From Orobanche coerulescens (lineage: Eukaryota; Streptophyta; Magnoliopsida; Lamiales; Orobanchaceae): a DNA stretch of 64,000 nucleotides. Below, in pieces: positions 7,375 to 64,000 of the stretch. Position numbers and translations under genes: made by a program. How positions within the stretch are numbered: the first letter of the stretch is position 1; every line of letters begins with the position of its first letter. The notes beneath the pieces were generated by a model. The model did not search any database, was not told where the DNA came from, and saw only the letters and a program-made list of their open reading frames with translations. The stretch is from NCBI GenBank assembly GCA_033398695.1, contig CM065804.1, forward strand, positions 11,083,001 through 11,147,000, given 5' to 3'.

Positions 7375-8667
7375 GCTGGTGCATCTGGTGCTGGAGCTGC
7401 AAAACCCAGGATTTACGAGATGAAGAAGGCCGATGATCCCGAATCCAGCATGATTGCAGGTACTCTTGAGATCCGATCTCAGCCCGTCTGTGTTCTTTTT
7501 GATACTGGTGATTCACTCTCCTTTTTATCTGCTTCTTGTTTGAGTCGTTTGCAATTAAATCATGTTACCAATTGTGAACCTTATGTAATTGGTCTACTTG
7601 ATGGTAGAAGAATTTTTGGGAATCGTGAAGTGTAGAACTGCCCAATTCGCATGAACGACCGTGAGTGGTTGTCGAATTTAATTATGGTCGATTTACCTAA
7701 AGATGATGTGATCTTGGGTATCGATTGGATGGATCGTCATGATGCCATACTTAGTGTCCGCAAGCGAACAGTGACCGTCACATCTGACGATGGTGTTGAG
7801 TGTATCTTTCAGGGTGACAATCCCAGCCGTTCCGGGAGAGTCATCAGCGCTATGAAAGCAGTGAAACTGCTTAATCAATGGTGTATTGGTTATTGGTGTT
7901 ACATGACCAAAATAGAGGATCGACCAGTCGAATTGACCGATATTCCGGTAGTCCGAGACTACTCAGACGTATTTCCAGCTGAGTTGTCAGGCTTACCTCC
8001 ACATCGTGATGTAGAGTTTACTATTGAGTTAGAGCCGGGCACATCCCCGCTTTCGAAAGCACCATATCGTATGGCTCTGACCGAGATGCAGGAGTTAAAA
8101 AACCAGCTTGAGGAGTTGAGTGAGAAAGGCTATATTCGACCTAGTGTGTCCCCTTGGGGAGCACCAGTGCTTTTTCTACAGAAGAAAGATGGATCCCTGC
8201 GTTTGTGCATTGATTACCGTGAGCTGAACAGGGTAACCATCAAGAACAAATATCCATTGCCTCGTATTGATAATTTATTGGATCAACTTCAGGGAGCTGC
8301 TGTGTTTTCTAATATCGGATTGAGGTCCTGGTATCATCAGTTGAGGATTTGAGAGTCTGACATTCGAAGACCACTTTTCGTACTCGCTATGGGCATTATG
8401 AGTTCGTAGTGATGATTTTTGGACTAACTAATGCACCGGAGGTATTCATGGAGTTGATAAATCGGGTTTTTATTAATTATCTGGATCGCTTTCATTGTTT
8501 TTTTTATTGACGACATTCTGATTTACTCTCGTGACCATGAAGAACATGAGCGTCATCTCCATCAGGTTCTCGATGCATTGAGGCGAGAACAACTTTATGG
8601 AAAATTTTCTAAATGTGAGTTCTGGATGCGTGAGGTTATCTTTCTCGGGCATGTGATATCAGCCGAT
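7375..8667 (+). pseudogene. pol: E1 protease and first part of reverse transcriptase
   Basis: The aspartic protease is seen as VLFDTGDSLSF near 7490-7530 and the ILGIDW strand near 7710; a stop splits it at 7633. Reverse transcriptase starts near 7990 ([16 protein letters not shown]) and runs through [26 protein letters not shown] to a stop near 8350. The continuation, including the catalytic FIDDILIYS near 8505-8530, is in other frames after indels. The gene is cut at 8667 inside the [10 protein letters not shown] segment by the Athila insertion and resumes at 54362. It would have copied element RNA into cDNA; it cannot do so now. Confidence 0.88.
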
Positions 8668-9057
8668 TGACACGCTTTTAGTGTAACTATCGCAAGTGCA
8701 CGATATCGTATCAAGTAGTAAAGTGGACTTTTTGAGTCCGGTTTATCGATCCCACAAGGAAGTTTGGTTATAATTTGAATTATACACTATTAGTCTATTT
8801 TTATAGATACTATGATAAGTGAAACACACAATTAAAAAGTTTGGTTTAATATTTGCAAAGAAAATGCAATAATAGTTCTAATATTATAAGGAAATAAAAA
8901 GATAGCAATAATAATAGATTGATTAACGATAAAATGAAATAGTTGGGATTACAAACTTAGTTCGTCATTAGTTATAAAACATGTATAGGAGATCATAAAA
9001 TGAATTTACTTATTATGTTGTGTAGATTCGATTTTCCTTAAAAAGACGGTTTCTCTT
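8668..9057 (-). repeat. Athila LTR-A, left part (cut by element C)
   Basis: This matches the start of LTR-B (46205) and LTR-C (52780), except that it keeps about 55 bp (8679-8733) that both of them lack. The cut at 9057 carries the 5-bp duplication CTCTT (9053-9057, repeated at 39958-39962), and the LTR resumes at 39958. Confidence 0.92.
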
Positions 9058-39957: not shown

Positions 39958-40566
39958 CTCTTTCGAACTATAAAACGCCCCTTACATATTGAATCAATCC
40001 ACTATATTTCTATGTTGATTGGCTTCAATACATAGCATTAGGATTTATGAAAATAACTCAAAGAATCATCTAAGGACTAGGGGTATATTTCTATCCCCTA
40101 GAACAACTTAGAGTGAAGATCATTTGATCTAATCAAACATATTTTCTTTCGAAACATATGAAGACCATAAATATCGTCATTTATTGGCCAAATAAATAAA
40201 GATTGTTAAAACAATGAAAATCACACACAATAATAAGTAATTCACAATAGATCTTTATACAAACATAAATAACATGACTAACCTTGTTTATAATCCCAAC
40301 TAAAAATTACTTAGCCCATGAAGGGTTTATTACACATATTACAAGCTTGTGTGGTCATTATTAGTTGAATCAAGATAAAGAATTGATCCTAACTCCTTTA
40401 GTAGATAAAGGAGATAGAAACAATAAACTCTCTGAACAACATATGTTATACCACACTTACAAAGATCACTCAAGAACACAAGTGTGTTCTTCACACAAAA
40501 AGAAAAGTTTACAAAAAAATACAAAATTATAAGATGAATCATGAATGATGATGGATCTAAGGGGTC

Positions 40567-40574
40567 TATTTATA
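40567..40574 (-). promoter_or_regulatory. TATA box of Athila LTR-A
   Basis: TATAAATA on the - strand, followed by GACCCC; present at the same place in LTR-B, LTR-C and F. A weaker TATAAT-like element lies nearer the palindromes (about 40670-40682). Confidence 0.55.
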
Positions 40575-40702
40575 CACCTAAAGTCATCTAATAGCTCCAA
40601 AATTCCAGCATTATTACAATAGATCGGATCAATGCCAGCCATCCCCTCAATAATAGACCAAAAGTATAAAATATTATACAATGATCAAAAATCTGCCAAG
40701 AG

Positions 40703-40851
40703 TTACGGCCGTAATATTGAGGAGTTACGACCGTAACTTGGATGACTTACGGCCGTAACATTGAGTAGTTACGGCCGTAACATGGCCGTAACATGGCTAC
40801 GTTTTTCTGCATTTGTGAGTTACGCCCGTATGTTATGATGTTAGGCCCGTA
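40703..40851 (-). promoter_or_regulatory. Phased TTACGGCCGTAA palindrome array, Athila LTR-A
   Basis: Palindrome copies begin at 40703, 40725, 40747 and 40769, exactly 22 bp apart (the second has A for G). A half copy follows at 40784. Two degenerate copies (TTACGCCCGTA and TTAGGCCCGTA) begin at 40820 and 40841, 21 bp apart. The array lies upstream of the TATA box in the direction of transcription. Confidence 0.85.
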
Positions 40852-41220
40852 TGGAGTTTCAGACTTCATTTTCAGCCCAGAAATTTCTGACTTTTGCGTT
40901 TTTGCCCCAAATCTTCTTCAGATGATAACTTTTGATATATAACTCAGATTTTGAATCCGGAAAAACTACCGAACTCGTCTCGGAAAGCCCTACAACATGA
41001 ATACATAAAAATTCAATAAAGAGAATATTTTATAAACATGTTATTTCTTGAGTAAATCAGTAATTCAATCTGATTAAGACTAGATTTACATCTTTATCCG
41101 ATAAAAATAAAATTATTAAAAACTAATTAATTAAAAGCAAAAAACGAGTAGACTAGCTCAATTATGGGTGAAATTTGTCGATACAAATCATGGATAAGTG
41201 TGTAAAACTGACACTTATCA

Positions 41221-42781
41221 CACCCCCAAACTTGAATTCTTGCTAGTCCCGAGCAAGACTCTTTATTAATCACACTCCAAAAATAAAAATAAAAATAAGA
41301 CACAAAACTAATAATACATATAAAAATTAAAATATAAAAAGAGAAAAGGAGATCAAAATGCCATTAATACACAACAACCAGCTTTATACAGTAGATAGAA
41401 ATGAATCAAGATTCAAAATAAATCTACTAATGTTTTTGAAGTTAAAACACGGTTTTTATTTTGTAATTCCAAATTCAAGGTTTCCCCCCCAAAAGGTTGG
41501 TTATTTCTCTCCCACTCGTGATATACACGACTCCCTTTAATGGTTGCTCTCGACCACTCATTTATTTTTCGACTCAATATGAAGAAGAATTTTATTGGCG
41601 TCATCAAATATTGTGATTTTCACAAAATTGAGTGTATTGAAATCCAGCCGCTAATTAATTCAAATCTGCTCATAAACTACATCCCTTTTAGTGATAGCTT
41701 TCACACCGTTATTTGCTAACGTGTAGCTCTTTTCACTAACACAATTTCTATCTCATTTTTTTTAAAAGGTGATAGCTTTCACAACGTTATTTGCTAACGT
41801 GTAGCTCTTTTTACCAATTTTTCTGAGACGGCAGCTACGCACCAATAATGGTTAGTCCTTTATTTTTCGCAAAATTTAAGACCCCTAAAATTAGGCAGCT
41901 GTTGCTGCTCAACACTTCTCCTTTTCGTCATTTTTTCTAGGTGATAGCTTTCACACCGTTATTTGCTAACGTGTAGCTCTTTTCACCAATGACTCATTTT
42001 TTTTTTTTTAGGGAATAGAATTTTTGCAGAAAATCATTTTTTAGTTAAGTATGAAGAATCAAAAACTCCACAAATTAAGTAAATTTCAGTTTTATTTTTC
42101 ATCAACCAATTGATTCTTCTTTTCTCAAGGTAACGAATGACTTGATTTTATATGATAATTACAAGGCTTGGAAAGAGAGATTAAGGCTCAAAAATTTTGG
42201 AATATACAATTTTTTAACCGGTTAAAACGATTTTTAGAAACTTGTATATAGCTATTTTATTGGTGTTATGGCCAGATCTAGAAATCTCAAAAATCAAAAT
42301 AATATATATATATATATAATTAAGGCAAATAACCAAATCAATCAAAACACACCAAAATAGTTAAACAAACCACCCCCAAACTTGAAAATAAAACTGTCCT
42401 CAGTTTAAAAATAAAAAATAAAAATCAATGCAGAAAAGCAGAATACTCCCTGTTAAGAAAGTTGATGTCTGAGCTAACGCCTTTTAGAATCTGCAAGAGA
42501 ATAAATATACGAGGCACACAACAAAAGAAAATAAAATATACTCGTAAGTATAACACAATTTTTAAGATGCGCATCGAGAAAGTCCGAAGAGTCGCCTTAC
42601 ACTGCCATCAAAATTTTTATAAAAAAACACACAATAAACATTACAGTAATAAAATAACAATACATAAATCGCGAATAAATGCGCGTCAAGAGATCAAGAA
42701 GAAACTCCTTAAGCTGCCATCATTTAGCACGATTATTACACACGACAGAAAGTAAAAATACAAGAGGTCCGACATGGGTTA
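41221..42781 (-). other. 3' noncoding part of Athila copy 1: two polypurine tracts and hairpin repeats
   Basis: The terminal polypurine tract CAAGTTTGGGGGTG is at 41221-41234 (- strand) and a second, central-type tract with the same sequence is at about 42371-42385, where Athila pol normally ends. Between them no ORF is credible. Three 44-47 bp units (41691, 41769, 41941), each foldable into a hairpin, lie between the tracts. 42386-42781 is AT-rich sequence between the central tract and the LOG pseudogene and contains a TTTATTCTCTTGCAG acceptor-like site on the - strand. Confidence 0.65.
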
Positions 42782-43427
42782 TCAAAGGGAGAGGAATGAA
42801 TCCACTTTTCGTTTTATCACGGTAAAATCTTCTACCCAGACAATTTTAGTTAGAGCTGGATCTGGTTGAGGAACAAATTCATTGAGTTTTTTGATTAGTT
42901 CTTCTGGTGTTGTTGCAATGACTATGATTCGTTTTGCACGCTCGGAAATAAAACCCTTTTCAGCAGAGTAGTCGATGAAAGACAGTAAACCATCAAAGAA
43001 ACCATTGACATTAAGCACACCTATTGGTTTTTGATGAACATTTAGCTGGGCTCTGGTAACCACATGAAAAAGTTCCTCAAGGGTGCCAAAACCACCTAAA
43101 GGGTGATAAAGGCGCGAATTATTTATCATGTGAGTTATGCGATCTTGCATATTCACATATCTAAACTCATCTCCAATAGTTGACCGGTGATTTTACTTTC
43201 GGAGAGGTTTTGGGATTATTCCCAACACTCTTACTCCTTCCATATAGTGACGTGACTCGTCCCATTAATCCTAGACTTCCTCCTCCGTAAACTATATGAA
43301 TGCATTTTTCTCCTAAGGTACGACCCAAGTTGTGGGGTGCTTCAGTAAAGCATGCCTCTTTTCCAGAACTAGCTCCACCAAAAATGCATACTGTGTTAAA
43401 CTTTTTTGTTGAAGATGATGACTCCAT
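42782..43427 (-). pseudogene. LOG: LOG-like cytokinin riboside monophosphate phosphoribohydrolase captured in Athila copy 1
   Basis: LOG enzymes release active cytokinin bases from their riboside 5'-monophosphates. The N-terminal half starts at 43427 (MESSSSTKKFNTVCIFGGASS) and has the diagnostic YGGGSLGLMG. A frameshift follows; VRVLGIIPKP can be read in another frame. From 43156 a clean frame gives GGFGTLEELF (the family motif is PGGxGTxxE), then KPIGVLNVNGFF, LLSFID, EKGFISERAKRIIV and PEELIKKLNEF to the stop at 42782. Total length, about 215 codons, equals a whole plant LOG without introns, whereas plant LOG genes have several. The Pro before GGFGT is lost and at least two shifts break the frame, so it is a pseudogene. 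It is on the same strand as gag and replaces reverse transcriptase to integrase. Confidence 0.88.
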
Positions 43428-43823
43428 TTTGAAAAGAAAAATTTTTTTAGAGAGAAACAGAGAAAAGTGCAAGTTTGAGGGATGAATGAAAGAAACCAGT
43501 AAAAAGTTTATTTATAGAAGAAAAAGAAGGTAAAAATTGTTTAACAAGTTTGTGATTGCGTTGATTGCGCTTCAACTACTCAATAGAATAATGAAAGCAT
43601 TTATCGCGTATCACATTTTTTATTCAGAAAAACTCACCTTACGACAAAAATAAAAGATACTTACGTGTATGTACAGTAGTTGTGATTGTGGCTCACATCT
43701 TCCTCTGATTTTACGTTCAGAAACGGCTTAAACACCTTCTAAGAGTTGGGGAGAAGCTTCCCATCCAATTTTCTTATAAATTGGCAAACTGGGTCTTTTA
43801 ACGTCAGATTCCCAAGACGTTGT
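43428..43823 (-). promoter_or_regulatory. Leader and TATA box before LOG; splice-donor-like sites
   Basis: On the - strand TATAAATA (43509-43516) lies 82 bp before the LOG start and is followed by a pyrimidine-rich leader (TTTCTTTCATTCATCCCTC), looking like a host promoter and 5' UTR. Further upstream, GGTGAG (about 43633-43638) and GTAAGT (43659-43664) resemble splice donors. Gag-protease ends at 43824. No ORF lies in this stretch. Confidence 0.5.
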
Positions 43824-46099
43824 TCATATTATGGCATCAATTGCATCAATTTTTAGACAGTAATCATCTGTGGAGGGATGATTCAAAGTTTTTAGGACTT
43901 TGAAGGTGGCATGTTCGTCTTGCACTCTAAGAATTAGCTTTCCTTCGTAGACGTCAATAAGAGCATGTCCGGTTGCAACAAATGGCCGTCCCAAGATAAT
44001 AGGAATATCCTGATCTTCCTCCATGTCAAGGATGATAAAATCTGCAGGAAATATGAATTTATCAACCTTGATTAGCACATCTTCTATTATCCCATGTGGA
44101 TATTTGATTGACCGATCGGCTAAGCTGCGGTGAAAGCTTATTGCTTTTGCTTCTCCCAAGTTTAGTTTGTTGAAAATTGACAGGGGGCATCAAATTGATA
44201 CTTGCCCTAAATCACAAAGAGCTTTGTCAATATTCACTTCACCAATTGTACACGGATTGTAAAAGTTCCGGATCTTTTAGCTTGGGTGGCAACTTCTTTT
44301 GTAGTATTGCGCTACATTCTTACATTAGCACGACAGTTTCATATTCTTCAAGCCTTCGTTTGTTAGAAAGAATATCTTTCATAAATTTGGCATAACTTGG
44401 CATTTGTGCTAGAGCATCGGCAAAAGGTATGTTGATGTGTAGCTTTTTGAAAATTTCCACAAATTTTCCGAATTATGACGAGCTTGTGATTCTTCAACCA
44501 TTGAGGAAAAGGGATAGGTGGAACATAAGATTTGGCAGCAACTGGACCTTTTTGAGATGAATGTCCTGATTCAGATTCTTTTTCTATTTCTCGACTTTGT
44601 TTATTTTTTTGTTTTGCCAGATGATTTTCCACAGAAATCTCAGGCAATTGCACTCCACTTCTTGTTGTGATAGCTGGACACTCTCCTCGATTTACCTCGG
44701 TATTGCTAGGTAACATTCCGTGGGATCTTTCGGAAAGTATTTTGGCCATTTGGCCAAGTTGTGTCTCCAGATTTTTAATTGAAGCATCATTGCGTTGTTG
44801 ATACTTCAGTTGTTGTTCGGCTAGCTTCGTGATTGCTTCTTCCCACCCGGGCTTCTTTTCTTGATGCGTTGGATTCAACACATTGTTGTTGTTTGCATAA
44901 TAAAAATTTGGATGATTTTTGTACCCTGGAGTGTATGTTGGCCCGTAAGGATTGTATGCTTGCCTTTGGAAATTATGAGCATATGCCACTTGTTCTGGTG
45001 GTGGGAATGACTGCTCCTGTTGCGCTAAGGGACACATAGTGCTGTTGTGAGTTGCTCCACAAATTTCACATGAAAGAGTTAAAACTTGTGGAGTTTGCAC
45101 CGTCTTCACAGATTGAGGAGTTGAAAAAGACATGTCCTCGACTTTCTTTGATAAAGCTTCAATTTTTGCCAACATAAGTGAATAAGAATCCACTTCAAAA
45201 ACGCCATTTGGTTTCTTTTGGATATTTCTGTCTGGCCATCTTGCACTTTGTTCACTTATAACCTCAAAAAGATTATAAGCCTCTCTCATAGTTTTGTTTC
45301 CAAGTGAACCATTTGATGATGAATCGACATTGGCTCGGCATGTAGGTAAGAGTCCAGAATAGAAGTAATTGAATTGTGCTCCCAAATTGAAACCATGGTT
45401 AGGACATTTTCGTAGCATATCTTTGTATCTCTCCCATGCTTCGTGAAATGACTCCGAATCTTGTTGACGAAATGTAGAGATTTCGTATTTGAGTTTCGCC
45501 ACTTTTATTGGTGGAAAGTATTTAGTGGTGAATTTTTGAACAAATTCGGGCCAATTTGTTATGCTTTGTGGTGGCAAAGTATCTAGCCACTCTCTTGCTC
45601 TGTCCTTCAAAGTGTGCACGAAAAGTCTCATTTTTATCGCCTCGTCATTTACATTTGGATATTTGAAATTTCCACAAATCTCCACAAAACGGTTAATATG
45701 GAGATATGGATTCTCATCGGTTCTTCCATAGAATGAGTTGTTGTTGGAGAAGAGATTGATGACATCGGGGCGAATTTGAAAATTGTCCACTCCAAATGGT
45801 GGATAGATCACACTTGATTGCACGCTCAAAGATAGGGGGTTCATGAATTCCCCAAAGAGCATGTTGTCTTCATCTATTTCCGGCACAATAGGATATTGTT
45901 GAATGTTTTGAACATTAGGTATTCCCCCCACCGGAGGAATTCTTTCGTTATCATTTCCTTGGGGGAGACGTGGATTTAGTTCGTCCGCCATTGATGGTGA
46001 AGAAATAATGTTTTTCTTTTGTTCTCTTCGCCTTCTTCTGAATGTGGCTTCGATCTCGGGATCTAGTGAAACTAAATCGCGATTGTATGTCCTTCGCAT
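43824..46099 (-). pseudogene. gag: Athila copy 1 gag-protease, frameshifted
   Basis: It starts MRRTYNRDLVSLDPEIEATF. The first piece (44363-46099, 578 residues) carries the gag core (FVHTLKDRAREWLDTLPP, FTTKYFPPIKVAKLKYEI, CPNHGFNLGAQFNYFYSGLL) and a knuckle-like CEICGATHNSTMC. Small indels at about 44160-44480 break the frame; the second piece (43824-44159) carries the protease end (IILGRPFVATGHALIDVYEGKLILRVQDE). Copy 2 shows the undamaged arrangement. No reverse transcriptase follows. Confidence 0.9.
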
Positions 46100-46180
46100 A
46101 GATAAGAGAATCTAGAACAAAGAAAAAGTTGTATTTATAACAATAGTTAATAATGTAATTTTTCAAATATAACTTATACT

Positions 46181-46198
46181 TCCCCGGCAACGGCGCCA
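46181..46198 (-). other. Primer-binding site of Athila copy 1
   Basis: On the - strand TGGCGCCGTTGCCGGGGA, the classical Athila primer site complementary to a tRNA-Asp 3' end, lies six bases inside LTR-B. Confidence 0.93.
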
Positions 46199-46204
46199 AA
46201 AACT

Positions 46205-47786
46205 TGACACGCTTTGAGTCCGGTTTATCGATCCCACAAGGAAGTTTGGTTATAATTTGAATTATACACTATTAGTCTATTTTTATAGATACTATGATAA
46301 GTGAAACACATAATTAAAAAGTTTGGTTTAATATTTGCAAAGAAAATGCAATAATAGTTCTAATATTATAAGGAAATAAAAAGATAGCAATAATAATAGA
46401 TTGATTAACGATAAAATGAAATAGTTGGGATTACAAACTTAGTTCGTCATTAGTTATAAAAGATATATAGGAGATCATAAAATGAATTTACTTATTATGT
46501 TGTGTAGATTCGATTTTCCTTAAAAAGACGGTTTCTCTTTCGAACTATAAAACGCCCCTTACATATTGAATCAATCCACTATATTTCTATGTTGATTGGC
46601 TTCAATACATAGCATTAGGATTTATGAAAATAACTCAAAGAATCATCTAAGGACTAGGGGTATATTTCTATCCCCTAGAACAACTTAGAGTGAAGATCAT
46701 TTGATCTAATCAAACATATTTTCTTTCGAAACATATGAAGACCATAAATATCGTCATTTATTGGCCAAATAAATAAAGATTGTTAAAACAATGAAAATCA
46801 CACACAATAATAAGTAATTCACAATATATCTTTATACAAACATAAATAACATGACTAACCTTGTTTATAATCCCAACTAAAAATTACTTAGCCCATGAAG
46901 GGTTTATTACACATATTACAAGCTTGTGTGGTCATTATTAGTTGAATCAAGATAAAGAATTGATCCTAACTCCCTTAGTAGATAAAGGAGATAGAAACAA
47001 TAAACTCTCTGAACAACATATGTTATACCACACTTACAAAGATCACTCAAGAACACAAGTGTGTTCTTCACACAAAAAGAAAAGTTTACAAAAAAATGCA
47101 AAATTATAAGATGAATCATGAATGATGATGGATCTAAGGGGTCTATTTATACACCTAAAGTCATCTAATAGCTCCAAAATTCCAGCATTATTACAATAGA
47201 TCGGATCAATGCCAGCCATCCCCTCAATAATAGACCAAAAGTATAAAAAATTATACAATGATCAAAAATCTGCCAAGAGTTACGGCCGTAACATTGAGGA
47301 GTTACGACCGTAACTTGGATGACTTACGGCCGTAACATTGAGTAGTTACGGCCATAACATGCCTACGTTTTTCTGCATTTGTGAGTTACGCCCGTATGTT
47401 ATGATGTTACGCCCGTATGGAGATTCAGACTTCATTTTCAGCCTAGAAATTTCTGACTTTTGCGTTTTTGCCCCAAATCTTCTTCAGATGATAACTTTTG
47501 ATATATAACTCAGATTTTGAATCCGGAAAGACTGCCGAACTCGTCTCGGAAAGCCCTACAACATGAATACATAAAAATTCAACAAAGAGAATATTTTATA
47601 AACATGTTATTTCTTGAGTAAATCAGTAATTCAATCTGATTAAGACTAGATTTACATCTTTATCCGATAAAAATAAAATTATTAAAAACTAATTAATTAA
47701 AAGCAAAAAACGAGTAGACTAGCTCAATTACGGGTGAAATTTGTCGATACAAATCATGGATAAGTGTATAAAACTGACACTTATCA
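46205..47786 (-). repeat. Athila LTR-B (shared by copies 1 and 2)
   Basis: 1582 bp, TGACACGC to CTTATCA, same length as LTR-C. Both lack about 55 bp present near the edge of LTR-A and F. The palindrome array begins at 47280. It serves as 5' LTR of copy 1 and 3' LTR of copy 2. Confidence 0.93.
47280..47420 (-). promoter_or_regulatory. Phased palindrome array, Athila LTR-B
   Basis: TTACGGCCGTAA copies begin at 47280, 47302 (one mismatch), 47324 and 47346 (ends CATAA), all exactly 22 bp apart, with degenerate TTACGCCCGTA copies further on. A TATA box lies downstream in the - direction, as in LTR-A. Confidence 0.83.
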
Positions 47787-49343
47787 CACCCCCAAACTTG
47801 AATTCTTGCTAGTCCCGAGCAAGACTCTTTATTAATCACACTCCAAAAATAAAAATAAAAATAAGACACAAAACTAATAATACATACAAAAATTAAAATA
47901 TAAAAAGAGAAAAGGAGATCAAAATGCCATTAATACACAACAACCAGCTTTATACAGTAGATAGAAATGAATCAAGATTCAGAATAAATCTACTAATGTT
48001 TTTGAAGTTAAAACACGGTTTTTATTTTGTAATTCCAAATTCAAGGTTTTCCCCCCCAACAGGTTGATTATTTCTCTCCCACTCGTGATATACACGACTC
48101 CCTTTAATGGTTGCTCTCGACCACTCGTTTATTTTTCGACTCAATATGAAGAAGAATTTTATTGGCGTCATCAAATATTGTGATTTTCACAAAATTGAGT
48201 GTATTGAAATCCAGCCGCTAATTAATTCAAATCTGCTCATAAACTACATCCCTTTTAGTGATAGCTTTCACACCGTTATTTGCTAACGTGTAGCTCTTTT
48301 CACTAACACAATTTCTATCTCATTTTTTTAAAAGGTGATAGCTTTCACACCGTTATTTGCTAACGTGTAGCTCTTTTTACCAATTTTTCTGAGACGGCAG
48401 CTACGCACCAACAATGGTTAGTCCTTTATTTTTCGCAAAATTTAAGACCCCCAAAATTAGGCAAATTCTTGTCGCTCAACACTTCTCCTTTTCGTCATTT
48501 TTTAGGTGATAGCTTTCACACCGTTATTTGCTAACGTGTAGCTCTTTTCACCAATGACTCATTTTTTTAGGGAATAGAATTTTTGCAGAAAATCATTTTT
48601 AGTTAAGTATGAAGAATCAAAAACTCCACAAATTAAGTAAATTTAGGTTTTATTTTTCATCAACCAATTGATTCTTCTTTTCTCAAGGTAACGAATGACT
48701 TGATTTTATATGATAATTACAAGGCTTGGAAAGAGAGATTAAGGCTCAAAAATTTTGGAATATACAATTTTTTAACCGGTTAAAACGATTTTTAGAAACT
48801 TGTATATAGCTATTTTATTGGTGTTATGGCCAGATCTAGAAATCTCAAAAATCAAAATAATATATATATATATATATATAATTAAGGCAAATAACCAAAT
48901 CAATCAAAATACACCAAAATAGTTAAACAAACCACCCCCAAACTTGAAAATAAAATTGTCCTCAGTTTAAAAATAAAAAATAAAAATCAATGCAGAAAAG
49001 CAGAATACTCCCTGTTAAGAAAGTTGATGTCTGAGCTAACGCCTTTTAGAATCTGCAAGAGAATAAATATACGAGGCACACAACAAAAGAAAATAAAATA
49101 TACTCGTAAGTATAACACAATTTTTAAGATGCGCATCAAGAAAGTCCGAAGAGTCGCCTTACACTGCCATCAAAATTTTTATAAAAAAACACACAATAAA
49201 CATTACAGTAATAAAATAACAATACATAAATCGCGAATAGATGCGCGTCAAGAGATCAAGAAGAAACTTCTTAAGCTGCCATCATTTAGCACGATTATTA
49301 CACACGACAGAAAGTAAAAATACAAGAGGTCCGACATGGGTTA
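47787..49343 (-). other. 3' noncoding part of Athila copy 2
   Basis: Counterpart of 41221-42781: terminal polypurine tract next to LTR-B, three hairpin units (48258, 48335, 48506), a lengthened TA microsatellite near 48860-48881, the central polypurine tract near 48934-48948 and AT-rich sequence up to LOG. No credible ORF. Confidence 0.65.
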
Positions 49344-49994
49344 TCAAAGGGAGAGGAATGAATCCACTTTTCGTTTTATCACGGTAAAATCTTCTACCCA
49401 GACAATTTTAGCTAGAGCTGGATCTGGTTGAGGAACAAATTCATTGAGTTTTTTGATTAGTTCTTCTGGTGTTGTTGCAATGACTATGATTCGTTTTGCA
49501 CGCTCGGAAATAAAACCCTTTTCAGCAGAGTAGTCGATGAAAGACAGTAAACCATCAAAGAAACCATTGACATTAAGCACACCTATTGGTTTTGATGAAC
49601 ATTTAGCTCGGCTCTGTAACCACATGAAAAAGTTCCTCAAGGGTGCCAAAACCACCTAAAGGGTGATAAAGGCGCCAGAATTATTTATCATGTGAGTTAT
49701 GCGATCTTGCATATTCACGATCTAAACTCATCTCCAATAGTTGACCGGTGATTTTACTTTCGGACCAGAGGTTTTGGGATTATTCCCAACACTCTTACTC
49801 CTTCCATATAGGTATGACGTGACTCGTCCCATTAATCCTAGACTTCCTCCTCCGTAAACTACATGAATGCATTTTTCTCCTAAGGTACGACCCAAGTTGT
49901 GGGGTGCTTCAGTAAAGCATGCCTCTTTTCCAGAACTAGCTCCACCAAAAATGCATACTGTGTTAAACTTTTTTGTTGAAGATGATGACTCCAT
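49344..49994 (-). pseudogene. LOG: LOG-like gene captured in Athila copy 2
   Basis: Second copy of the captured cytokinin-activating enzyme. The first frame from 49994 covers MESSSSTKKFNTVCIFGG through YGGGSLGLMGRV. After a shift, VRVLGIIPKP is readable, and INNSGAFITL, the segment before the catalytic motif, is preserved here but damaged in copy 1. GGFGTLEELF follows one base out of frame. The last frame (KPIGVLNVNGFFDGLLSFID to the stop at 49344) matches copy 1. Lesions unique to each copy sit on a shared lesion at the missing Pro, so the gene was already broken, or miscalled, before duplication. TATAAATA lies 83 bp upstream (50077-50084). Confidence 0.87.
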
Positions 49995-50391
49995 TTTTGA
50001 AAAGAAAAATTTTTTTAGAGAGAAACAGAGAAAAGTGCAAGTTTGAGGGATGAATGAAAGAAACCAGTAAAAAGTTTATTTATAGAAGAAAAAGAAGGTA
50101 AAAATTGTTTAACAAGTTTGTGATTGCGTTGATTGCGCTTCAACTACTCAATAGAATAATGAAAGCATTTATCGCGTATCACATTTTTTATTCAGAAAAA
50201 CTCACCTTACGACAAAAATAAAAGATACTTACGTGTATGTACAGTAGTTGTGATTGTGGCTCACATCTTCCTCTGATTTTACGTTCAGAAACGGCTTAAA
50301 CACCTTCTAAGAGTTGGGGAGAAGCTTCCCATCCAATTTTCTTATAAATTGGCAAACTGGGTCTTTTAACGTCAGATTCCCAAGACGTTGT
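49995..50391 (-). promoter_or_regulatory. Leader and TATA box before LOG, copy 2
   Basis: Same as 43428-43823: TATAAATA at 50077-50084 (- strand), pyrimidine-rich leader and splice-donor-like GGTGAG and GTAAGT between LOG and the end of gag-protease. No ORF. Confidence 0.48.
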
Positions 50392-52680
50392 TCATATTAT
50401 GGCATCAATTGCATCAATTTTTAGACAGTAATCATCTGTGGAGGGATGATTCAAAGTTTTTAGGACTTTGAAGGTGGCATGTTCGTCTTGCACTCTAAGA
50501 ATTAGCTTTCCTTCGTAGACGTCAATAAGAGCATGTCCGGTTGCAAGAAATGGCCGTCCCAAGATAATAGGAATATCCTGATCTTCCTCCATGTCAAGGA
50601 TGATAAAATCTGCAGGAAATATGAATTTATCAACCTTTATTAGCACATCTTCTATTATCCCATGTGGATATTTGATTGACCGATCGGCTAACTGCAGTGA
50701 AACTGTTATTGCTTTTGCTTCTTCCAAGTTTAGTTTGTTGAAAATTGACAGGGGCATCAAATTGATACTTGCCCCTAAATCACAAAGAGCTTTGTCAATA
50801 TTCACTTCACCAATTGTACACGGGATTGTAAAAGTTCCCGGATCTTTTAGCTTGGGTGGCAACTTCTTTTGTAGTATTGCGCTACATTCCTCTGTTAGCA
50901 CGACAGTTTCATATTCTTCAAGCCTTCGTTTGTTAGAAAGAATATCTTTCATAAATTTGGCATAACTTGGCATTTGTGCTAGAGCATCGGCAAAAGGTAT
51001 GTTGATGTGTAGCTTTTTGAAAATTTCCACAAATTTTCCGAATTGCGCATCGAGCTTGTGATTCTTCAACCGTTGAGGAAAAGGGATAGATGGAACATAA
51101 GATTTGGCAGCAACTGGACCTTTTTGAGATGAATGTCCTGATTCAGATTCTTTTTCTATTTCTCGACTTTGTTTATTTTTTTGTTTTGTCAGATGATTTT
51201 CCACAGAAATCTCAGGCAATTGCACTCCACTTCTTGTTGTGATAGCCTGGACACTCTCCCTTGGATTTACCTCGGTATTGCTAGGTAACATTCCGTGGGA
51301 TCTTTCGGAAAGTGTTTTGGCCATTTGGCCAAGTTGTGTCTCCAGATTTTTAATTGAAGCATCATTGCGTTGTTGATACTTCAGTTGTTGTTCGGCTAGC
51401 TTTGTGATTGCTTCTTCCCACCCGGGCTTCTTTTCTTGATGCGTTGGATTCAACACATTGTTGTTGTTTGCATAAGAAAAATTTGGATGATTTTTGTACC
51501 CTGGAGTGTATGTTGGCCCGTAAGGATTGTATGCTTGCCTTTGGAAATTCTGAGCATAGGCCACTTGTTCTGGTGGTGGGAATGACTGCTCCTGTTGCGC
51601 TAAGGGACACATAGTGCTGTTGTGAGTTGCTCCACAAATTTCACATGAAAGAGTTAAAACTTGTGGAGTTTGCACCGTCTTCACAGATTGAGGAGTTGAA
51701 AAAGACATGTCCTCGACTTTCTTTGATAAAGCTTCAATTTTTGCCAACATAAGTGAATAAGAATCCACTTCAAAAACGCCATTTGGTTTCTTTTGGATAT
51801 TTCTGTGTGGCCATCTTGCACTTTGTTTACTTATAACCTTAAAAAGATTATAAGCCTCTCTCATAGTTTTGTTTCCAAGTGAACCATTTGATGATGAATC
51901 GACATTGGCTCGGCATGTAGGTAAGAGTCCAGAATAGAAGTAATTGAATTGTGCTCCCAAATTGAAACCATGGTTAGGACATTTTCGTAGCATATCTTTG
52001 TATCTCTCCCATGCTTCGTGAAATGACTCCGAATCTTGTTGACGAAATGTAGAGATTTCGTATTTGAGTTTCGCCACTTTTATTGGTGGAAAGTATTTAG
52101 TGGTGAATTTTTGAACAAATTCGGGCCAATTTGTTATGCTTTGTGGTGGCAAAGTATCTAGCCACTCTCTTGCTCTGTCCTTCAAAGTGTGCACGAAAAG
52201 TCTCATTTTTATCGCCTCGTCATTTACATTTGGATATTTGAAATTTCCACAAATCTCCACAAAACGGTTAATATGGAGATATGGATTCTCATCGGTTCTT
52301 CCATAGAATGAGTTGTTGTTGGAGAAGAGATTGATGACATCGGGGAGAATTTGAAAATTGTCCACTCCAAATGGTGGATAGATCACACTTGATTGCACGC
52401 TCAAAGATGGGGGGTTCATGAATTCCCCAAAGAGCATGTTGTCTTCATCTATTTCCGGCACAATAGGATATTGTTGAATGTTTTGAACATTAGGTATTCC
52501 CCCCACCGGAGGAATTCTTTCGTTATCATTTCCTTGGGGGAGACGTGGATTTAGTTCGTCCGCCATTGATGGTGAAGAAATAATGTTTTTCTTTTGTTCT
52601 CTTCGCCTTCTTCTGAATGTGGCTTCGATCTCGGGATCTAGTGAAACTAAATCGCGATTGTATGTCCTTCGCATAGACAA
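50392..52680 (-). CDS. gag: Athila copy 2 gag-protease, complete open frame
   Basis: A single uninterrupted frame of 762 residues. Starts MSMRRTYNRDLVSLDPE. The gag core is at about residues 150-280 (FVHTLKDRAREWLDTLPP, FTTKYFPPIKVAKLKYEI), followed by a knuckle-like CEICGATHNSTMC (about 355) and a Gln/Asn-rich linker. An Athila-type aspartic protease follows, with LCDLGASINLMP (about 640-655) and IPIILGRPFLATGHALIDV. It ends at the point where reverse transcriptase would begin, and what follows is the LOG pseudogene. An intact gag in an element without polymerase suggests a non-autonomous element that still made particles until recently. Confidence 0.92.
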   Translation of the reverse strand: MSMRRTYNRDLVSLDPEIEATFRRRRREQKKNIISSPSMADELNPRLPQGNDNERIPPVGGIPNVQNIQQYPIVPEIDEDNMLFGEFMNPPSLSVQSSVIYPPFGVDNFQILPDVINLFSNNNSFYGRTDENPYLHINRFVEICGNFKYPNVNDEAIKMRLFVHTLKDRAREWLDTLPPQSITNWPEFVQKFTTKYFPPIKVAKLKYEISTFRQQDSESFHEAWERYKDMLRKCPNHGFNLGAQFNYFYSGLLPTCRANVDSSSNGSLGNKTMREAYNLFKVISKQSARWPHRNIQKKPNGVFEVDSYSLMLAKIEALSKKVEDMSFSTPQSVKTVQTPQVLTLSCEICGATHNSTMCPLAQQEQSFPPPEQVAYAQNFQRQAYNPYGPTYTPGYKNHPNFSYANNNNVLNPTHQEKKPGWEEAITKLAEQQLKYQQRNDASIKNLETQLGQMAKTLSERSHGMLPSNTEVNPRESVQAITTRSGVQLPEISVENHLTKQKNKQSREIEKESESGHSSQKGPVAAKSYVPSIPFPQRLKNHKLDAQFGKFVEIFKKLHINIPFADALAQMPSYAKFMKDILSNKRRLEEYETVVLTEECSAILQKKLPPKLKDPGTFTIPCTIGEVNIDKALCDLGASINLMPLSIFNKLNLEEAKAITVSLQLADRSIKYPHGIIEDVLIKVDKFIFPADFIILDMEEDQDIPIILGRPFLATGHALIDVYEGKLILRVQDEHATFKVLKTLNHPSTDDYCLKIDAIDAII

Positions 52681-52755: not shown

Positions 52756-52773
52756 TCCCCGGCAACGGCGCCA
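52756..52773 (-). other. Primer-binding site of Athila copy 2
   Basis: TGGCGCCGTTGCCGGGGA on the - strand, six bases inside LTR-C. Confidence 0.93.
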
Positions 52774-52779
52774 AAAACT

Positions 52780-54361
52780 TGACACGCTTTGAGTCCGGTT
52801 TATCGATCCCACAAGGAAGTTTGGTTATAATTTGAATTATACACTATTAGTCTATTTTTATAGATACTATGATAAGTGAAACACATAATTAAAAAGTTTG
52901 GTTTAATATTTGCAAAGAAAATGCAATAATAGTTCTAATATTATAAGGAAATAAAAAGATAGCAATAATAATAGATTGATTAACGATAAAATGAAATAGT
53001 TGGGATTACAAACTTAGTTCGTCATTAGTTATAAAAGATATATAGGAGATCATAAAATGAATTTACTTATTATGTTGTGTAGATTCGATTTTCCTTAAAA
53101 AGACGGTTTCTCTTTCGAACTATAAAACGCCCCTTACATATTGAATCAATCCACTATATTTCTATGTTGATTGGCTTCAATACATAGCATTAGGATTTAT
53201 GAAAATAACTCAAAGAATCATCTAAGGACTAGGGGTATATTTCTATCCCCTAGAACAACTTAGAGTGAAGATCATTTGATCTAATCAAACATATTTTCTT
53301 TCGAAACATATGAAGACCATAAATATCGTCATTTATTAACCAAATAAATAAATATTGTTAAAACAATAAAAATCACACACAATAATAAGTAATTCACAAT
53401 AGATCTTTATACAAATATAAATAACATGACTAACCTTGTTTATAATCCCAACTAAAAATTACTTATCCCATCAAGGGTTTATTACACATATTACAAGCTT
53501 GGGTGGTCATTATTAGTTGAATCAAGAGAAAGAATTGATCCTAGCTCCCTTAGTATATAAAGGAGATAGAAACAATAAACTCTCTGAACAACATATGTTA
53601 TACCACACTTACAAAGATCACTCAAGAACACAAGTGTGTTCTTCACACAAAAAGAAAAGTTTACAAAAAAATGGAAAATTATAAGATGAATCATGAATGA
53701 TGATGGATCTAAGGGGTCTATTTATACACCTAAAGTCATCTAATAGCTCCAAAATTCCAGCATTATTACAATAGATCGGATCAATGCCAGCCATCCCCTC
53801 AATAATAGACCAAAAGTATAAAAAATTATACAATGATCAAAAATCTGCCAAGAGTTACGGCCGTAATATTGAGGAGTTACGGCCGTAACTTGGATGACTT
53901 ACGGCCGTAACATTGAGTAGTTACGGCCGTAACATGGCTACGTTTTTATGCATTTGTGAGTTACGCCCGTATGTTATGATGTTACGCCCGTATGGAGTTT
54001 CAGACTTCATTTTCAGCCCAGAAATTTCTCAGAATTTGCGTTTTGCCCCAAATTTTCTTCAGATGATAACTTTTGATATATAACTCAGATTTTGAATCCG
54101 GAAAGACTGCCGAACTCGTCTCGGAAAGCCCTACAACATGAATACATAAAAATTCAACAAAGAGAATATTTTATAAACATGTTATTTCTTGAGTAAATCA
54201 GTAATTCAATCTGATTAAGACTAGATTTACATCTTTATCCGATAAAAATAAAATTATTAAAAACTAATTAATTAAAAGCAAAAAACGAGTAGACTAGCTC
54301 AATTATGGGTAAAATTTATCGATACAAATCATGGACAAGTGTATAAAACTGACACTTATCA
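52780..54361 (-). repeat. Athila LTR-C (outer 5' LTR of the array)
   Basis: 1582 bp, nearly identical to LTR-B. The right edge CTTATCA is followed by CCGAT, the target duplication shared with 8663-8667, after which E1 reverse transcriptase resumes. Confidence 0.94.
53855..53995 (-). promoter_or_regulatory. Phased palindrome array, Athila LTR-C
   Basis: Four perfect TTACGGCCGTAA copies begin at 53855, 53877, 53899 and 53921, exactly 22 bp apart. Two TTACGCCCGTA half-degenerate copies follow near 53961 and 53982. This is the cleanest example of the Athila array. Confidence 0.87.
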
Positions 54362-55863
54362 CCGATGGGGTGAGAGTAGACCCACAAAAGACAAGCTATT
54401 CGAGACTGGCTACCACCAAAGAATCTGAATGAAGTTCGCAGTTTCTTGGGTCTAGCAGGTTATTACCGACGGTTCATGGAAGGGTTTTCCAAGATTGCCC
54501 AACCGATGACTAACCTGTTGAGGAAGGATAAGAAGTATTTATGGTCAGAGGCATGTCAGTAAAGTTTTGATGAACTCAAGAGTCGATTAATTTCAGCACC
54601 TGTTTTGGTTCTACCAAAAGGAACGGAAGGATTCGTGGTGTATAGTGACGTGTCGAGACAGGGTCTTGGATGTGTACTGATTCAGGAAGGGAAAGTGATT
54701 GCCTATGCATTGAGACAATTGCGACCCTATGAAGTTAACTATTCGACCCATGATTTGGAGCTAGCAGTCGTGGTGTTTGCTTTAAAAATCTGGCGTCACT
54801 ATCTGTACGGAGTTACCTGTCAAATTTTTACTGATCACAAGAGCCTGAAGTTTATTTTTGCTCAGAAGGAGTTGAACATGAGACAGAGAACGTGGCCGGA
54901 ACTAATCAAAGACTATGATATCGAGATCCTTTATCATCTGGGCAAAGCAAATGTGGTTGCCGACGCCTTGAGTCGTAAGATAGTACAGGAGTAGATGCTT
55001 GCCCGCTTGACAGTCCGGAGGGAATTGCAGTTAGAGTTCGTGAGACCAGAAATTGAAGTCTGGTTACAGCATATTCAGGGACAACTCGGCACACTTGATA
55101 TTTCATCATCCCTAGATGACAGAATCAGATCGAAGCAGGTTACGAACCCATTCTTATCTCGAGTTCGGGATGAAGTAACTCAAGGGAAAGCCCCTGGATT
55201 TGTGATCCACGAGGATGAATTAATACGCTTCAGGAATCGAATTTGTGTACCCGTAGACGAAGAGTTTAGGAACTCTATCCTGAGAGAGGCCTATGCTACC
55301 CCGTACTCCATTCACCCAGGATCTAGTAAGATGTATAAGGATTTGAAACAATGTTATTGGTGGGGGAATATGAAGCGTGAAGTTGCAGAGTTCGTTTCGA
55401 GATGTTTAACCTATCAGCAGGTTAAGATTGAGCATCAGCGACCCACAGGAAATGCTGAAACCGCTCCCGATTCCTGAGTGGAAATGGGAGGACATATCGA
55501 TGGATTTTATCACTAGCTTGCCGACGAGTCGTCGAGGGATGAATAGGATTTGGGTGATTGTGGACCGTCTAACCAAATCAGCCCACTTTTTGGAGATTAA
55601 AGACACATGGGAACCCGAGAGATTGGCCCAGCTGTTTATTAAAGAGATTGTAAGGTTACATGGTACCCCTAAGAGTATTGTATCAGATCGTGACGGGCGA
55701 TTCGTGTCTCACTTCTGGAAAGCAGTTCATCGTGCGATGGGCACGCAATTGAACTTCAGTGCGACATTTCATCCGCAAACTGATGGTCAGACTGAAAGGA
55801 CTATCCAAACTATAGAGGATACGTTCAGGGCATGCGCTCTTGATTGGAAGGACGATTGGGAAG
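54362..55863 (+). pseudogene. pol: E1 reverse transcriptase end, RNase H and integrase (continued from 8667)
   Basis: Resumes E1 pol at GVRVDPQK and continues with [21 protein letters not shown]. RNase H follows ([46 protein letters not shown]). Integrase has the HHCC region with the last Cys pair altered (CLTYQQVK), then [20 protein letters not shown] and QTERTIQTIEDTF (the three catalytic acidic residues). Stops lie at about 54560 and 54992 and frameshifts at about 54390 and 55440. Sequence is cut at DDWE by F at 55864. Together with 7375-8667 this is one gene 45.7 kb apart. Confidence 0.9.
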
Positions 55864-57962
55864 TGACACGGTCTTTTGTGTAACTATCGCAAGTGCACGA
55901 TATCGTATCAAGTAGTAAGTGGACTTTTTGAGTCCGGTTTATCGTTCCCACGAGGAAGTTAGGTTATATATCGAATTATACACTATTTATCTATTTATTA
56001 TAGAGATTTAGATGAGTGAAACACACAATTTAAGAGTTTAGTTTGACAATTGCAAGGAAAACGCAATAGTAGTTCTAAAATTTAAGGAAATGAAAGATTG
56101 CACTAATAATAGATTAATAAAAGGGTAAAATGAAATAGTTGGGATTACAAACTTAGTTCATCATTAGTTATAGAAGATGTATAGGAGATCAGTATTTACT
56201 TATTATGTTGTGTAGATTCGATTTTCCTTAAAAAGACGGTTCCTCTTTCGAATGTTAAAACGCCCCTTATATATTGAATCAATCCAATATATTTCTATGT
56301 TGATTGGCTTCAATACATAACATTAGGTTTTATGAAAATAACTCAAAGAATCATTTAAGGTCTAGAGGTATATTTCTATCCCCTAGAACAACTTAGAGTG
56401 AAGATCATTTGATCTAATCAACATATTTTCTTTCGAAATATATGAAGACCATAAATATCATCATTCATTGGCCAAATAAATAAAGATTGGTAAAACAATG
56501 AAAATCACACACAATAATAAGTAATCCATAATAAATCTTTATACAAACTTAAATAATATGACAAACCTTGTTTATAATCCCAACTAAGGATAACTTAGCC
56601 CATGAAGGGTTTATTCAACATATTACAAGCTTGAGTGGCCATTATTAGTTGAAAACGGGAAAGAATTGATATTAACTCCCTTAGTAAATAAAGGAGAAAG
56701 AAGCAATAAACTCCCTCAACAACATAAGCTAAACCACTATTACATACACTCTCAAGAACACAAGTGTGTTCTTCGCACAAAGAAAAATATTACAAAGTAG
56801 GAAAAATATAAGATGAGGGATGATTAATGATGGATCTAAGGGGTCTATTTATACACCTAAAGTCATCTAATAGCTCCAAAACTCCAGCATTATTACATTA
56901 GATCGGATCAAGGCCAGCCATCCTCTCAATAATAGACCAAAAGTATAAAAGATTTAAAAATGATCATACATCTGTCAAGAGTTACGGTCGTAACTGTGAG
57001 GACTTACGGCCGTAACTTTCAGATGTTACGGCCGTAACTTTGCTTCGGCTTTTTGCACATTAGTTGCTGTGAGTTACGGCTGTAACTTTCAGATGTTACG
57101 CCCGTATGGAGTTTCAGACTTTATTTTCAGCCCAGAATTTCTTAGACTTTTGCATTTTCGCCCCAAATCTTCTTTGGATGATAACTTTTGATATATAACT
57201 CTGATTTTGAATCCGGAAAGACTGCCGAACTCATCTCGGAAATCTCTACAACATGAATATATAAAAACTCAATAAAGAGAATATTTATAAACATGTTATT
57301 TCTTGAGTAAATTTGTAATTCAATCCGATTAAGGCTAAATTTACATCTTCATACTATAAACATAAAATTATTAAAATCTAATTAATTTAAAGCAAAAAAC
57401 GAGTAGACTAGCTCATAATTATGGGTAAAATATATCAATACCAATCACGGATAAGTGTATAAAACTGACACTTATCACATCCCCAAACTTGAATTCTTGC
57501 TAGTCCCGAGCAAGACTCTTTATTATTCACGCTCAAAATAAAAATAAAAAATAAGACACAAAGTAAGAAAAATAATACACATACAAATTAAGAAAAATAA
57601 TTAATAGTGTGTCAAGATTCAAAATGCCATTTACACAACAACTAGCTTTATATAGTAGATAGAAATGAATCAAGATTCAAAATAAATCTACTAATGATTT
57701 TGAAGTTAAAACACGGTTTTATTTTTTTAATTCCAAAATGCAAGGTTTCCCCCCAAAGGTTGATTAATTCTTTCCCACTCGTGACACACACGACTCCCTT
57801 TAATGGTTGCTCTCGATCACTCATTTATTTTTCGACTCAATATGAAAAAGAATTTCATCGGCGTCATCAAATATTGTGATTGTTCACGAAATTGAGTGTA
57901 TTGAAGTTCAGCCACCAATTAATTCAAATCTGCTTATAATCTACATCACTTTTAGTGATAGC
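55864..57962 (-). mobile_element. F: Athila-like element, LTR and start of internal region
   Basis: LTR 55864-57477 (TGACACGG to CTTATCA) is related to but clearly diverged from the Athila array LTRs and keeps the 55-bp block seen only in LTR-A. It has TTACGGCCGTAA palindromes and the GGGTCTATTTATACACC TATA region. The polypurine tract (57478-57491) and about 480 bp of 3' internal sequence follow, ending in the first hairpin unit, which is interrupted by G at 57963. It inserted into E1 integrase after GGAAG (55859-55863); the far end lies beyond the window. Confidence 0.88.
56982..57107 (-). promoter_or_regulatory. Phased palindrome array, F LTR
   Basis: TTACGGCCGTAA or one-mismatch copies begin at 56982, 57004 and 57026, and again at 57074 and 57096, every neighbouring pair exactly 22 bp apart. 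The 22-bp phase is thus kept although the rest of the LTR has diverged from the array LTRs. Confidence 0.82.
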
Positions 57963-58692
57963 TGTAACACCCCCAAATCCCATTGGGTTATTACAGTGCC
58001 GTGGACCCCACCTCAGGTGATCCACCAGGCGAACACGACTAAAATACAACAAACTGACCAAAATAGGAAATCACAGACCCTACCATGACGTCCGACATAC
58101 TATCCCGATATGGAATTTCAACGACAAGAATGGGCCTACATGGCCAAAATAAAAATACAACAACGTTCACGAGCCTTGCTCGGATAATACAAAATGACAA
58201 CGACTGAACAAAAATGGAGTACTCCAACTGTCTGACCAACATGAACACCAAAATATCTCGGACTAGTATCGCTCGAATGCCTCGTCGCCATCGTCATGCC
58301 CCTGTGTCTCAACTCTCTCCTCGCAAGTACCTAAAACATGAAAACATGTTCCGCCCCCACGGGGTCAGCCATCCAGTATAATGAATATCAAGTACATGCA
58401 CAACATGATATGCATCCAAAGGCAGAATAAACAGTACAACAATGGTAGTACGAGATGCTCACAAACCAAAGTAAGAATCGAGCATTCGTGGAATATTATG
58501 CCCATGGCATACGATCAATACCTGCTCAATAGGTTAGAACATATGTGCCCAACGGCGAATCATCAATATAGAACACAACAATACATTACCCGAAGGTAAA
58601 TCAATCCAACGCTGAAATAAATAAGGATCACAATGCCCGAAGGCTCAAACGGAAATACCGATACATCACAATGGCCTGAAAGCCCTCAAATT

Positions 58693-63776: not shown

Positions 63777-63780
63777 CTTC

Positions 63781-64000
63781 TGTAACACCCCCAAATCCCA
63801 TTGGGTTATTACAGTGCCGTGGACCCCACCTCAGGTGATCCACCAGGCGAACACGACTAAAATACAACAAACTGACCAAAATAGGAAATCACAGACCCTA
63901 CCATGACGTCCGACATACTATCCCGATATGGAATTTCAACGACAAGAATGGGCCTACATGGCCAAAATAAAAATACAACAACGTTCACGAGCCTTGCTCG
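63781..64000 (-). repeat. 5' LTR of G, first 220 bp (continues past window)
   Basis: Identical over its visible length to 57963-58182. Confidence 0.95.

Follow-up and report, generated by a model that had tools for sequence, protein, structure and literature searches.

A stretch of 64,000 nucleotides from Orobanche coerulescens (assembly GCA_033398695.1, contig CM065804.1, positions 11,083,001 to 11,147,000, hereafter the window) raises the question of how a cytokinin-type LOG gene comes to lie between the long terminal repeats (LTRs) of a retrotransposon, and whether it moves with them. A high-copy, non-autonomous Athila-like LTR family with a LOG-like accessory gene probably accounts for the element in the window. 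A first-pass annotation, made from the letters of the window, had described a full-length, intronless LOG gene directly behind gag-protease, on the same strand and between Athila-like LTRs; both the domain matches and the coordinates agree with this layout.

Structure of the element

On the minus strand, the order in the window is LTR, gag-protease, LOG, 3' region, LTR, gag, protease, LOG, 3' region and a split LTR. LOG is present twice because two units stand in tandem (LTR-int-LTR-int-LTR); they are 98.1% alike, with a period of approximately 6,575 bp. The element implied by the first-pass annotation is present, but it is not single: it is a tandem with LOG twice, its left LTR is split by an insertion of approximately 31 kb, and CCGAT stands around the array. 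The parts are as follows (positions within the window):

54362..54366, no strand: target-site duplication CCGAT, right side
52780..54361, minus strand: 5' LTR (1,582 bp) at the head of the array, starting TGATAAGTGTC and ending GTGTCA, without about 60 bp near its 3' end
52756..52773, minus strand: primer-binding site of unit 2, matching the 3' 18 bases of tRNA-Asp
50395..52674, minus strand: gag-protease of unit 2, a single open frame
50358..50411, minus strand: final 18 codons of a carlavirus-like open reading frame (ORF) behind the protease, unit 2
49344..49994, minus strand: full-length LOG-type gene of unit 2, with a broken frame
47801..49343, minus strand: non-coding 3' region of unit 2, closed by the polypurine tract AAGTTTGGGGGTGT (47787-47800)
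46205..47786, minus strand: middle LTR, a recombinant of the 3' and 5' LTR
46181..46198, minus strand: primer-binding site of unit 1
44363..46099, minus strand: gag of unit 1, frame broken ahead of the protease
43824..44159, minus strand: aspartic protease piece of unit 1 (PF08284, slightly below its cutoff)
43790..43843, minus strand: final 18 codons of the carlavirus-like ORF behind the protease, unit 1
43482..43823, minus strand: 342-bp stretch upstream of LOG, a putative internal promoter, containing TATAAATA (43516-43509) some 90 bp ahead of the LOG start codon
42782..43427, minus strand: full-length, intronless LOG-type gene of unit 1, with a frame that is broken in the assembly
41235..42781, minus strand: 3' non-coding region of unit 1, with the polypurine tract next to it (41221-41234)
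39958..41220, minus strand: 3' LTR, upstream piece
8668..9057, minus strand: 3' LTR, downstream piece, which retains the approximately 60 bp missing from the other two LTRs
8663..8667, no strand: target-site duplication CCGAT, left side

The gag matches PF03732 (E 3.5e-21), and in unit 2 gag and protease form one open frame of 764 residues containing PF03732 and PF13650. The C-terminal piece of LOG matches PF03641 (E 1.1e-21), and TIGR00730 matches both LOG pieces. The LOG gene of unit 1 measures 646 nt versus 654 nt expected from a 217-residue relative, contains no intron and lies on the same strand as gag; the frame is broken in both window copies. The absence of polymerase noted in the first-pass annotation is borne out: no reverse transcriptase or integrase match falls in the interval from protease to LOG or in that from LOG to the LTR, and the pol matches of the window sit in other gypsy elements. 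By eye, neither a poly-A tract nor a duplication is seen at the LOG ends. A motif of approximately 40 bp (gtgatagctttcacaccgttatttgctaacgtgtagctctttt), also recognised by eye, occurs three times in the 3' region at 41706-41991.

The assignment to Athila-like elements is a qualified one; in an element lacking pol for phylogenetic placement, it draws on the primer site, the 5-bp duplications, the LTR and the gag type. An 18-mer, which we take to be the 3' sequence of tRNA-Asp, is found just behind the LTR at 46181 and 52756; the tRNA scan gave 0 hits. The four pieces of the element have no Pfam match to an env-like gene or to Athila ORF-1. ORF-1 is reported in 16% of Athila elements (PMC6317226), and it is therefore not required for membership. 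The closest LOG and gag proteins both come from Orobanche, at 78% and 76%, respectively.

Recurrence across the genome

The host genome searched comprises 3.65 Gb. The LOG DNA query yields 3,606 first-look candidates, and the 40 that were scored are 93-100% alike, including the two of the window and 38 others at 93-96%; 39 of the 40 span all 700 bases, and one spans 698. The junction query, which runs from the protease to the LOG promoter, yields 3,161 candidates, with query words partly common to a second form of the element; 40 were scored at 96-100%, of which 38 lie outside the window at 96-98%. LOG stands directly behind the junction in all 18 of the places fetched from these 38, reaching the LOG end in 16, with L051 and L055 cut.

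One locus (L048) is a complete single gag-protease-LOG element with GTAAG on both sides. Ten more end pairs were fetched, and both ends are recognised in four, with exact duplications TTACC, ATCAG and CTTGT in three and one mismatch in the other. Together with CCGAT in the window and GTAAG, five gag-protease-LOG copies possess exact and different target duplications. The gag-protease-LOG form is a mobile family, as the first-pass annotation had proposed in preference to a single-locus insertion, its junction being found at many loci with different target duplications.

A single-locus pseudogene is ruled out by this recurrence. Similarly, a LOG gene within a nested insertion of its own is ruled out by the constant gene order in every gag-protease copy fetched. 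A 327-member protein cluster (P0090), considered as proof of copy number, was dropped and is not used because a cellular LOG cluster (P0271) has 186 members. At L063 and C7:69779723-69789149 of the host genome, three junction places lie 4,362 bp apart; the unit there consists of gag-protease and LOG, and the following gag comes after LOG with neither 3' region nor LTR in between.

A second form with a carlavirus-like reading frame

Outside the window, the 38 best-matching LOG copies include 35 with a small carlavirus-like ORF and no gag between the LTR and LOG. The remaining three comprise L033, which has gag-protease and is identical with L048, L021, which lies behind a different gag-bearing element, and L042, which is cut. 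This second form, of approximately 6.5 kb, consists of an LTR, the tRNA-Asp primer site, a leader of approximately 770 bp containing the ORF, the 342-bp stretch, LOG, the 3' region and an LTR; the LTR, primer-binding site, LOG and 3' region are common to both forms. Seven of the ten second-form loci with both outer LTR ends recognised have exact, different 5-bp duplications, while four of five bases match in L026; L012 lies in a tandem and is uncounted. The LTR pairs diverge by 1.27-3.39% in ten second-form loci, which corresponds to about 0.5-1.3 million years at a substitution rate of 1.3e-8. Further tandem arrays of the second form with a common LTR are seen in L012 and L025.

The small ORF matches PF01623, the carlavirus nucleic-acid-binding protein, over the cutoff in four of five copies, and PF05515 in three of five; PF01623 is also matched at the curated cutoff by a separately scanned piece of the ORF. 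The final 14-18 codons of this ORF stand directly behind the protease in the gag-protease form; therefore, the two forms seem to have arisen by separate internal deletions from a longer parent, a reconstruction based on the ORF remnant.

Phylogeny and fold of the LOG protein

A 124-residue piece of the LOG protein matches 1,377 proteins. The 120 best matches comprise 49 Orobanche rows (34 from O. minor, on 25 contigs), 9 from Rehmannia, 4 from Paulownia, 26 from Reevesia, 8 from Pterospermum, 5 from Diplodiscus, 5 from Xanthoceras and 14 unnamed. In the tree, 33 of these multi-copy rows and the window piece are joined by 29 of the 120 cellular LOGs and by two bacterial rows, one of them the Pseudomonas aeruginosa LOG. 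The window piece and the 33 multi-copy rows are placed on one branch (support 96/89) and the 29 cellular rows on another (100/99), and the split between them is left intact by the addition of two Arabidopsis LOGs. The cellular rows derive from a search with AtLOG3 and AtLOG8, leaning to the LOG1/3/4 and LOG8 types, with few representatives of other subfamilies and none of the host's own LOG genes; furthermore, fast evolution may pull the multi-copy clade outward in the tree. Compared with an Arabidopsis LOG (AtLOG3 or AtLOG8-type ranges), six of the eight clade members examined have 44-57% identity.

The tree places the element LOG in a multi-copy clade that spans several eudicot orders and stands apart from the sampled cellular LOGs, which speaks against a recent capture from the host. 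The gene has the appearance of an accessory long kept behind protease/pol, with pol lost in a separate event. The comparison in the first-pass annotation with a transducing retrovirus, in which a cellular gene replaces pol, is not supported: the gene belongs to a multi-copy clade apart from the cellular LOGs sampled, and gag is also missing in 35 of 38 sampled copies. The phylogenetic check that it had suggested gives a cargo not nested in the cellular LOGs of the tree, whose cellular sampling is limited. Within the multi-copy clade, a second, divergent LOG lineage of Orobanche minor (P0059, P0061 and P0085) retains a tail with LxLxL.

The PGGxGTxxE motif is present in 87 of 120 multi-copy rows versus 112 of 120 cellular rows, and is disturbed in both window copies; the motif glutamate is kept in 113 of 119 multi-copy rows and the arginine in 93 of 109. 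The predicted model of an Orobanche relative (mean predicted local distance difference test score 76.6, tail unordered) matches AtLOG3 at a template modelling score (TM) of 0.94 with E 1.7e-22. The LOG piece scores 46.7 and does not reach the 300-bit curated cutoff of the LOG equivalog. The Lysine_decarbox/LOG domain and the LOG fold are both present.

At the C-terminus, LxLxL occurs in 44 of 120 clade rows, versus none of 120 cellular LOGs and none of 120 gag controls, and a basic cluster is located in the last 20 residues in 64 of 120 clade rows versus none of 120 cellular LOGs. LxLxL is an EAR consensus (PMC9956375). It is found in 3 of the 42 Orobanche rows that reach the tail and in 0 of 5 from Xanthoceras. 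The tail of the window family, KRKVDSFLSL, contains the basic part without LxLxL. Scans of viral and genome contigs with LOG and gag gave one distant viral LOG (L001) and no gag.

Reading frames of the LOG gene

Under a strict start-stop rule, a complete LOG frame is present in 6 of 38 copies (18 fetched by the junction query and 20 by the LOG query). The indel events number 137 in 22 LOG copies versus 14 in 19 copies of the small ORF. Of the LOG indels, 97 of 137 adjoin CHG trinucleotides, which make up 16% of positions, and all four combinations occur in 24 of 28 pairs of break sites. Such recurrent breaks at CHG sites are the pattern expected of basecalling errors at methylated sites, and the breaks may be partly artefact. 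The small ORF has few breaks at a similar CHG density (25.6 vs 33.6 per kb), which reading the breaks as errors leaves unexplained. The frameshift described in the first-pass annotation is seen in both window LOGs and is probably in part a sequencing artefact.

Proposed mechanism and alternative explanations

In the proposed mechanism, both forms would derive by internal deletion from a gag-pro-pol-ORF-LOG parent and would rely on pol-bearing Athila elements for reverse transcriptase and integrase in trans. A TATA promoter of its own, within the element, would drive LOG, whose product, presumably a phosphoribohydrolase-type enzyme, would raise active cytokinin or a related free base locally. 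This could in turn favour cell division or meristem fate, and new copies made in such cells would be inherited. A bolder extension, which we regard as unlikely, is a two-gene effector-like cassette, in which a virus-type nuclear nucleic-acid-binding protein and a cytokinin-activating LOG with its own promoter would reprogram host division or silencing for the element and let gag-less copies outnumber gag-bearing copies; in sister lineages, LOG would in addition have acquired a nuclear, EAR-like (LxLxL) C-terminal tail able to recruit TOPLESS-type corepressors.

Several observations weigh against the main explanation or limit it. No pol-bearing parent was found among the genome places reached with the LOG and protease-LOG junction queries. 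Among the second-form loci, L011 has no matching duplication. The conserved lysine beside the motif arginine is kept in just 9 of 109 multi-copy rows. The TATA box of the TATAAATA type, which favours an internal promoter by its presence in 18 of 19 copies at 86-94 bp ahead of the LOG start codon, has a chance level of 5% in a stretch that long, and the copies are related. The ratio of nonsynonymous to synonymous polymorphism (pN/pS) is 0.69 for LOG, or 0.79 without gap-adjacent bases, and 0.53 for the small ORF, and the ratio of LOG to LTR divergence is 1.00 in this genome. Selection on LOG is therefore weak at best here, and strong selection is not borne out by either ratio. An apparent better conservation of LOG than of the LTR was an effect of gap-counted identities, and disappears with substitutions alone.

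These two ratios also favour the alternative that LOG is inert baggage, spread by the LTRs and decaying without a present role, as does the lack of a complete frame in 32 of 38 assembled copies. We consider this alternative rather doubtful, although not negligible: the fold and the catalytic motif are conserved throughout the clade, six frames are complete, and the same break sites turn up again and again in mutually incompatible combinations, mostly by CHG, as basecalling errors would, a reading that does not account for the few breaks of the small ORF. Much less probable is a recent transduction, in which one Athila element of this species took up the mRNA of a host LOG and gave rise to a young and passive family. 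Such a capture would fit an intronless gene between LTRs, the 93-100% likeness of the copies in this genome and the LTR divergence of 1.3-3.4% in ten loci; however, the gene groups with the multi-copy LOGs of Orobanche, Rehmannia, Paulownia, Malvaceae and Xanthoceras rather than with cellular LOGs, and most clade members have about 45-50% identity to Arabidopsis LOGs, with a cellular sample leaning to LOG1/3/4 and LOG8. A chance pseudogene at one locus, or an assembly artefact, could be suspected from the two broken window LOGs and the tandem array, but is hardly credible given the many loci on many contigs with their own duplications and LOG ends at which no poly-A or duplication is seen.

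If LOG is active, the high-copy family would be selfish DNA making a plant hormone in host cells, a manipulator at the hormone level, and its success would then have an explanation open to testing. The carlavirus-like ORF beside LOG hints at exchange between plant RNA viruses and retrotransposons. Many annotated "LOG genes" in such genomes may also be transposon genes, the 49 Orobanche proteins among the 120 best matches being unnamed.

Comparison with known elements

TR-GAG and other gag-only non-autonomous elements contain LTRs and gag without pol; unlike these, the window family carries an enzyme gene and its commoner form is gag-less. The cellular LOG At2g37210 (2a33) has the fold (TM 0.94) and the PGGxGTxxE motif in common with the element LOGs, which differ from it in having mostly lost the lysine, in an extra C-terminal tail and in being intronless. 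The cysteine-rich proteins of carlaviruses and allexiviruses (PF01623, PF05515) give significant Pfam matches to the small ORF; unlike them, the ORF resides in an integrated LTR element, the likeness covers part of the ORF, and its function is a predicted one.

The element resembles Athila, Calypso and Diaspora in the tRNA-Asp site 5-6 bp behind the LTR, the LTR of approximately 1.5 kb, the gag type, the 5-bp duplications and the extra gene in the 3' part (PMC1142308, PMC6317226). Unlike them, the window element is devoid of reverse transcriptase, RNase H, integrase and an env-like gene, with LOG in their place. A YgdH (LOG-type) domain is described in consensus Ty3/gypsy elements from Populus and two Citrus species (PMC9289625, which cites Steinbauerova 2011); the novelty that the first-pass annotation attached to a LOG cargo was overstated. 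These elements likewise contain a LOG-family domain inside plant Ty3/gypsy, a likeness at the level of the domain. Their consensuses are built around reverse transcriptase, whereas here pol is absent, gag is mostly absent and a carlavirus-like ORF is added. The same text describes orchid Ty3/gypsy elements of approximately 25 kb with an AlkB-type RNA demethylase (PMC9289625), which are similar in carrying an enzyme of cellular origin as a gypsy accessory gene, although the enzyme differs.

Neither a pol-less LOG element nor a carlavirus-type ORF in a retrotransposon was met in the open-licence literature searched, which is covered in part. Gypsy elements with accessory genes, LOG included, are known; within that partial literature, the pol-less LOG form and the carlavirus-type ORF are apparently new.

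Origin of the tandem

The whole array is bounded by a single 5-bp duplication, CCGAT. With an older related LTR at 55864-57478 as the outgroup, five sites in the upstream part of the LTR group the middle LTR with the 3' LTR, and two sites and the deletion of approximately 60 bp in the downstream part group it with the 5' LTR. Against a simple crossover, site 205 in the upstream part groups the middle with the 5' LTR. The one CCGAT pair and the site pattern therefore fit a single integration, which would later have been doubled when its LTRs crossed over unequally, and leave one site unaccounted for; on such an origin, the two window LOGs are not independent insertions.

Between the two units, the LTR has 33 substitutions and 0 indels, and LOG has 4 substitutions and 7 indels. 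The stretch 43431-43979 and its counterpart in unit 2 are without difference over approximately 550 bp, while the units differ by approximately 1.6% elsewhere; gene conversion is the simplest guess for this identical stretch.

Other insertions in the window

The insertion of approximately 31 kb that splits the left LTR of the array occupies 9058-39957. It is flanked by the duplication CTCTT and has its own LTRs of approximately 2 kb, which are 96.8% alike, with further nested gypsy elements inside. An older related Athila copy (87%) is located at 55864-57971, comprising an LTR and a 3' end, and ends before LOG would start. In addition, a perfect direct repeat of 221 bp at 57962-58182 and 63780-64000 probably represents the LTRs of a young element leaving the window.

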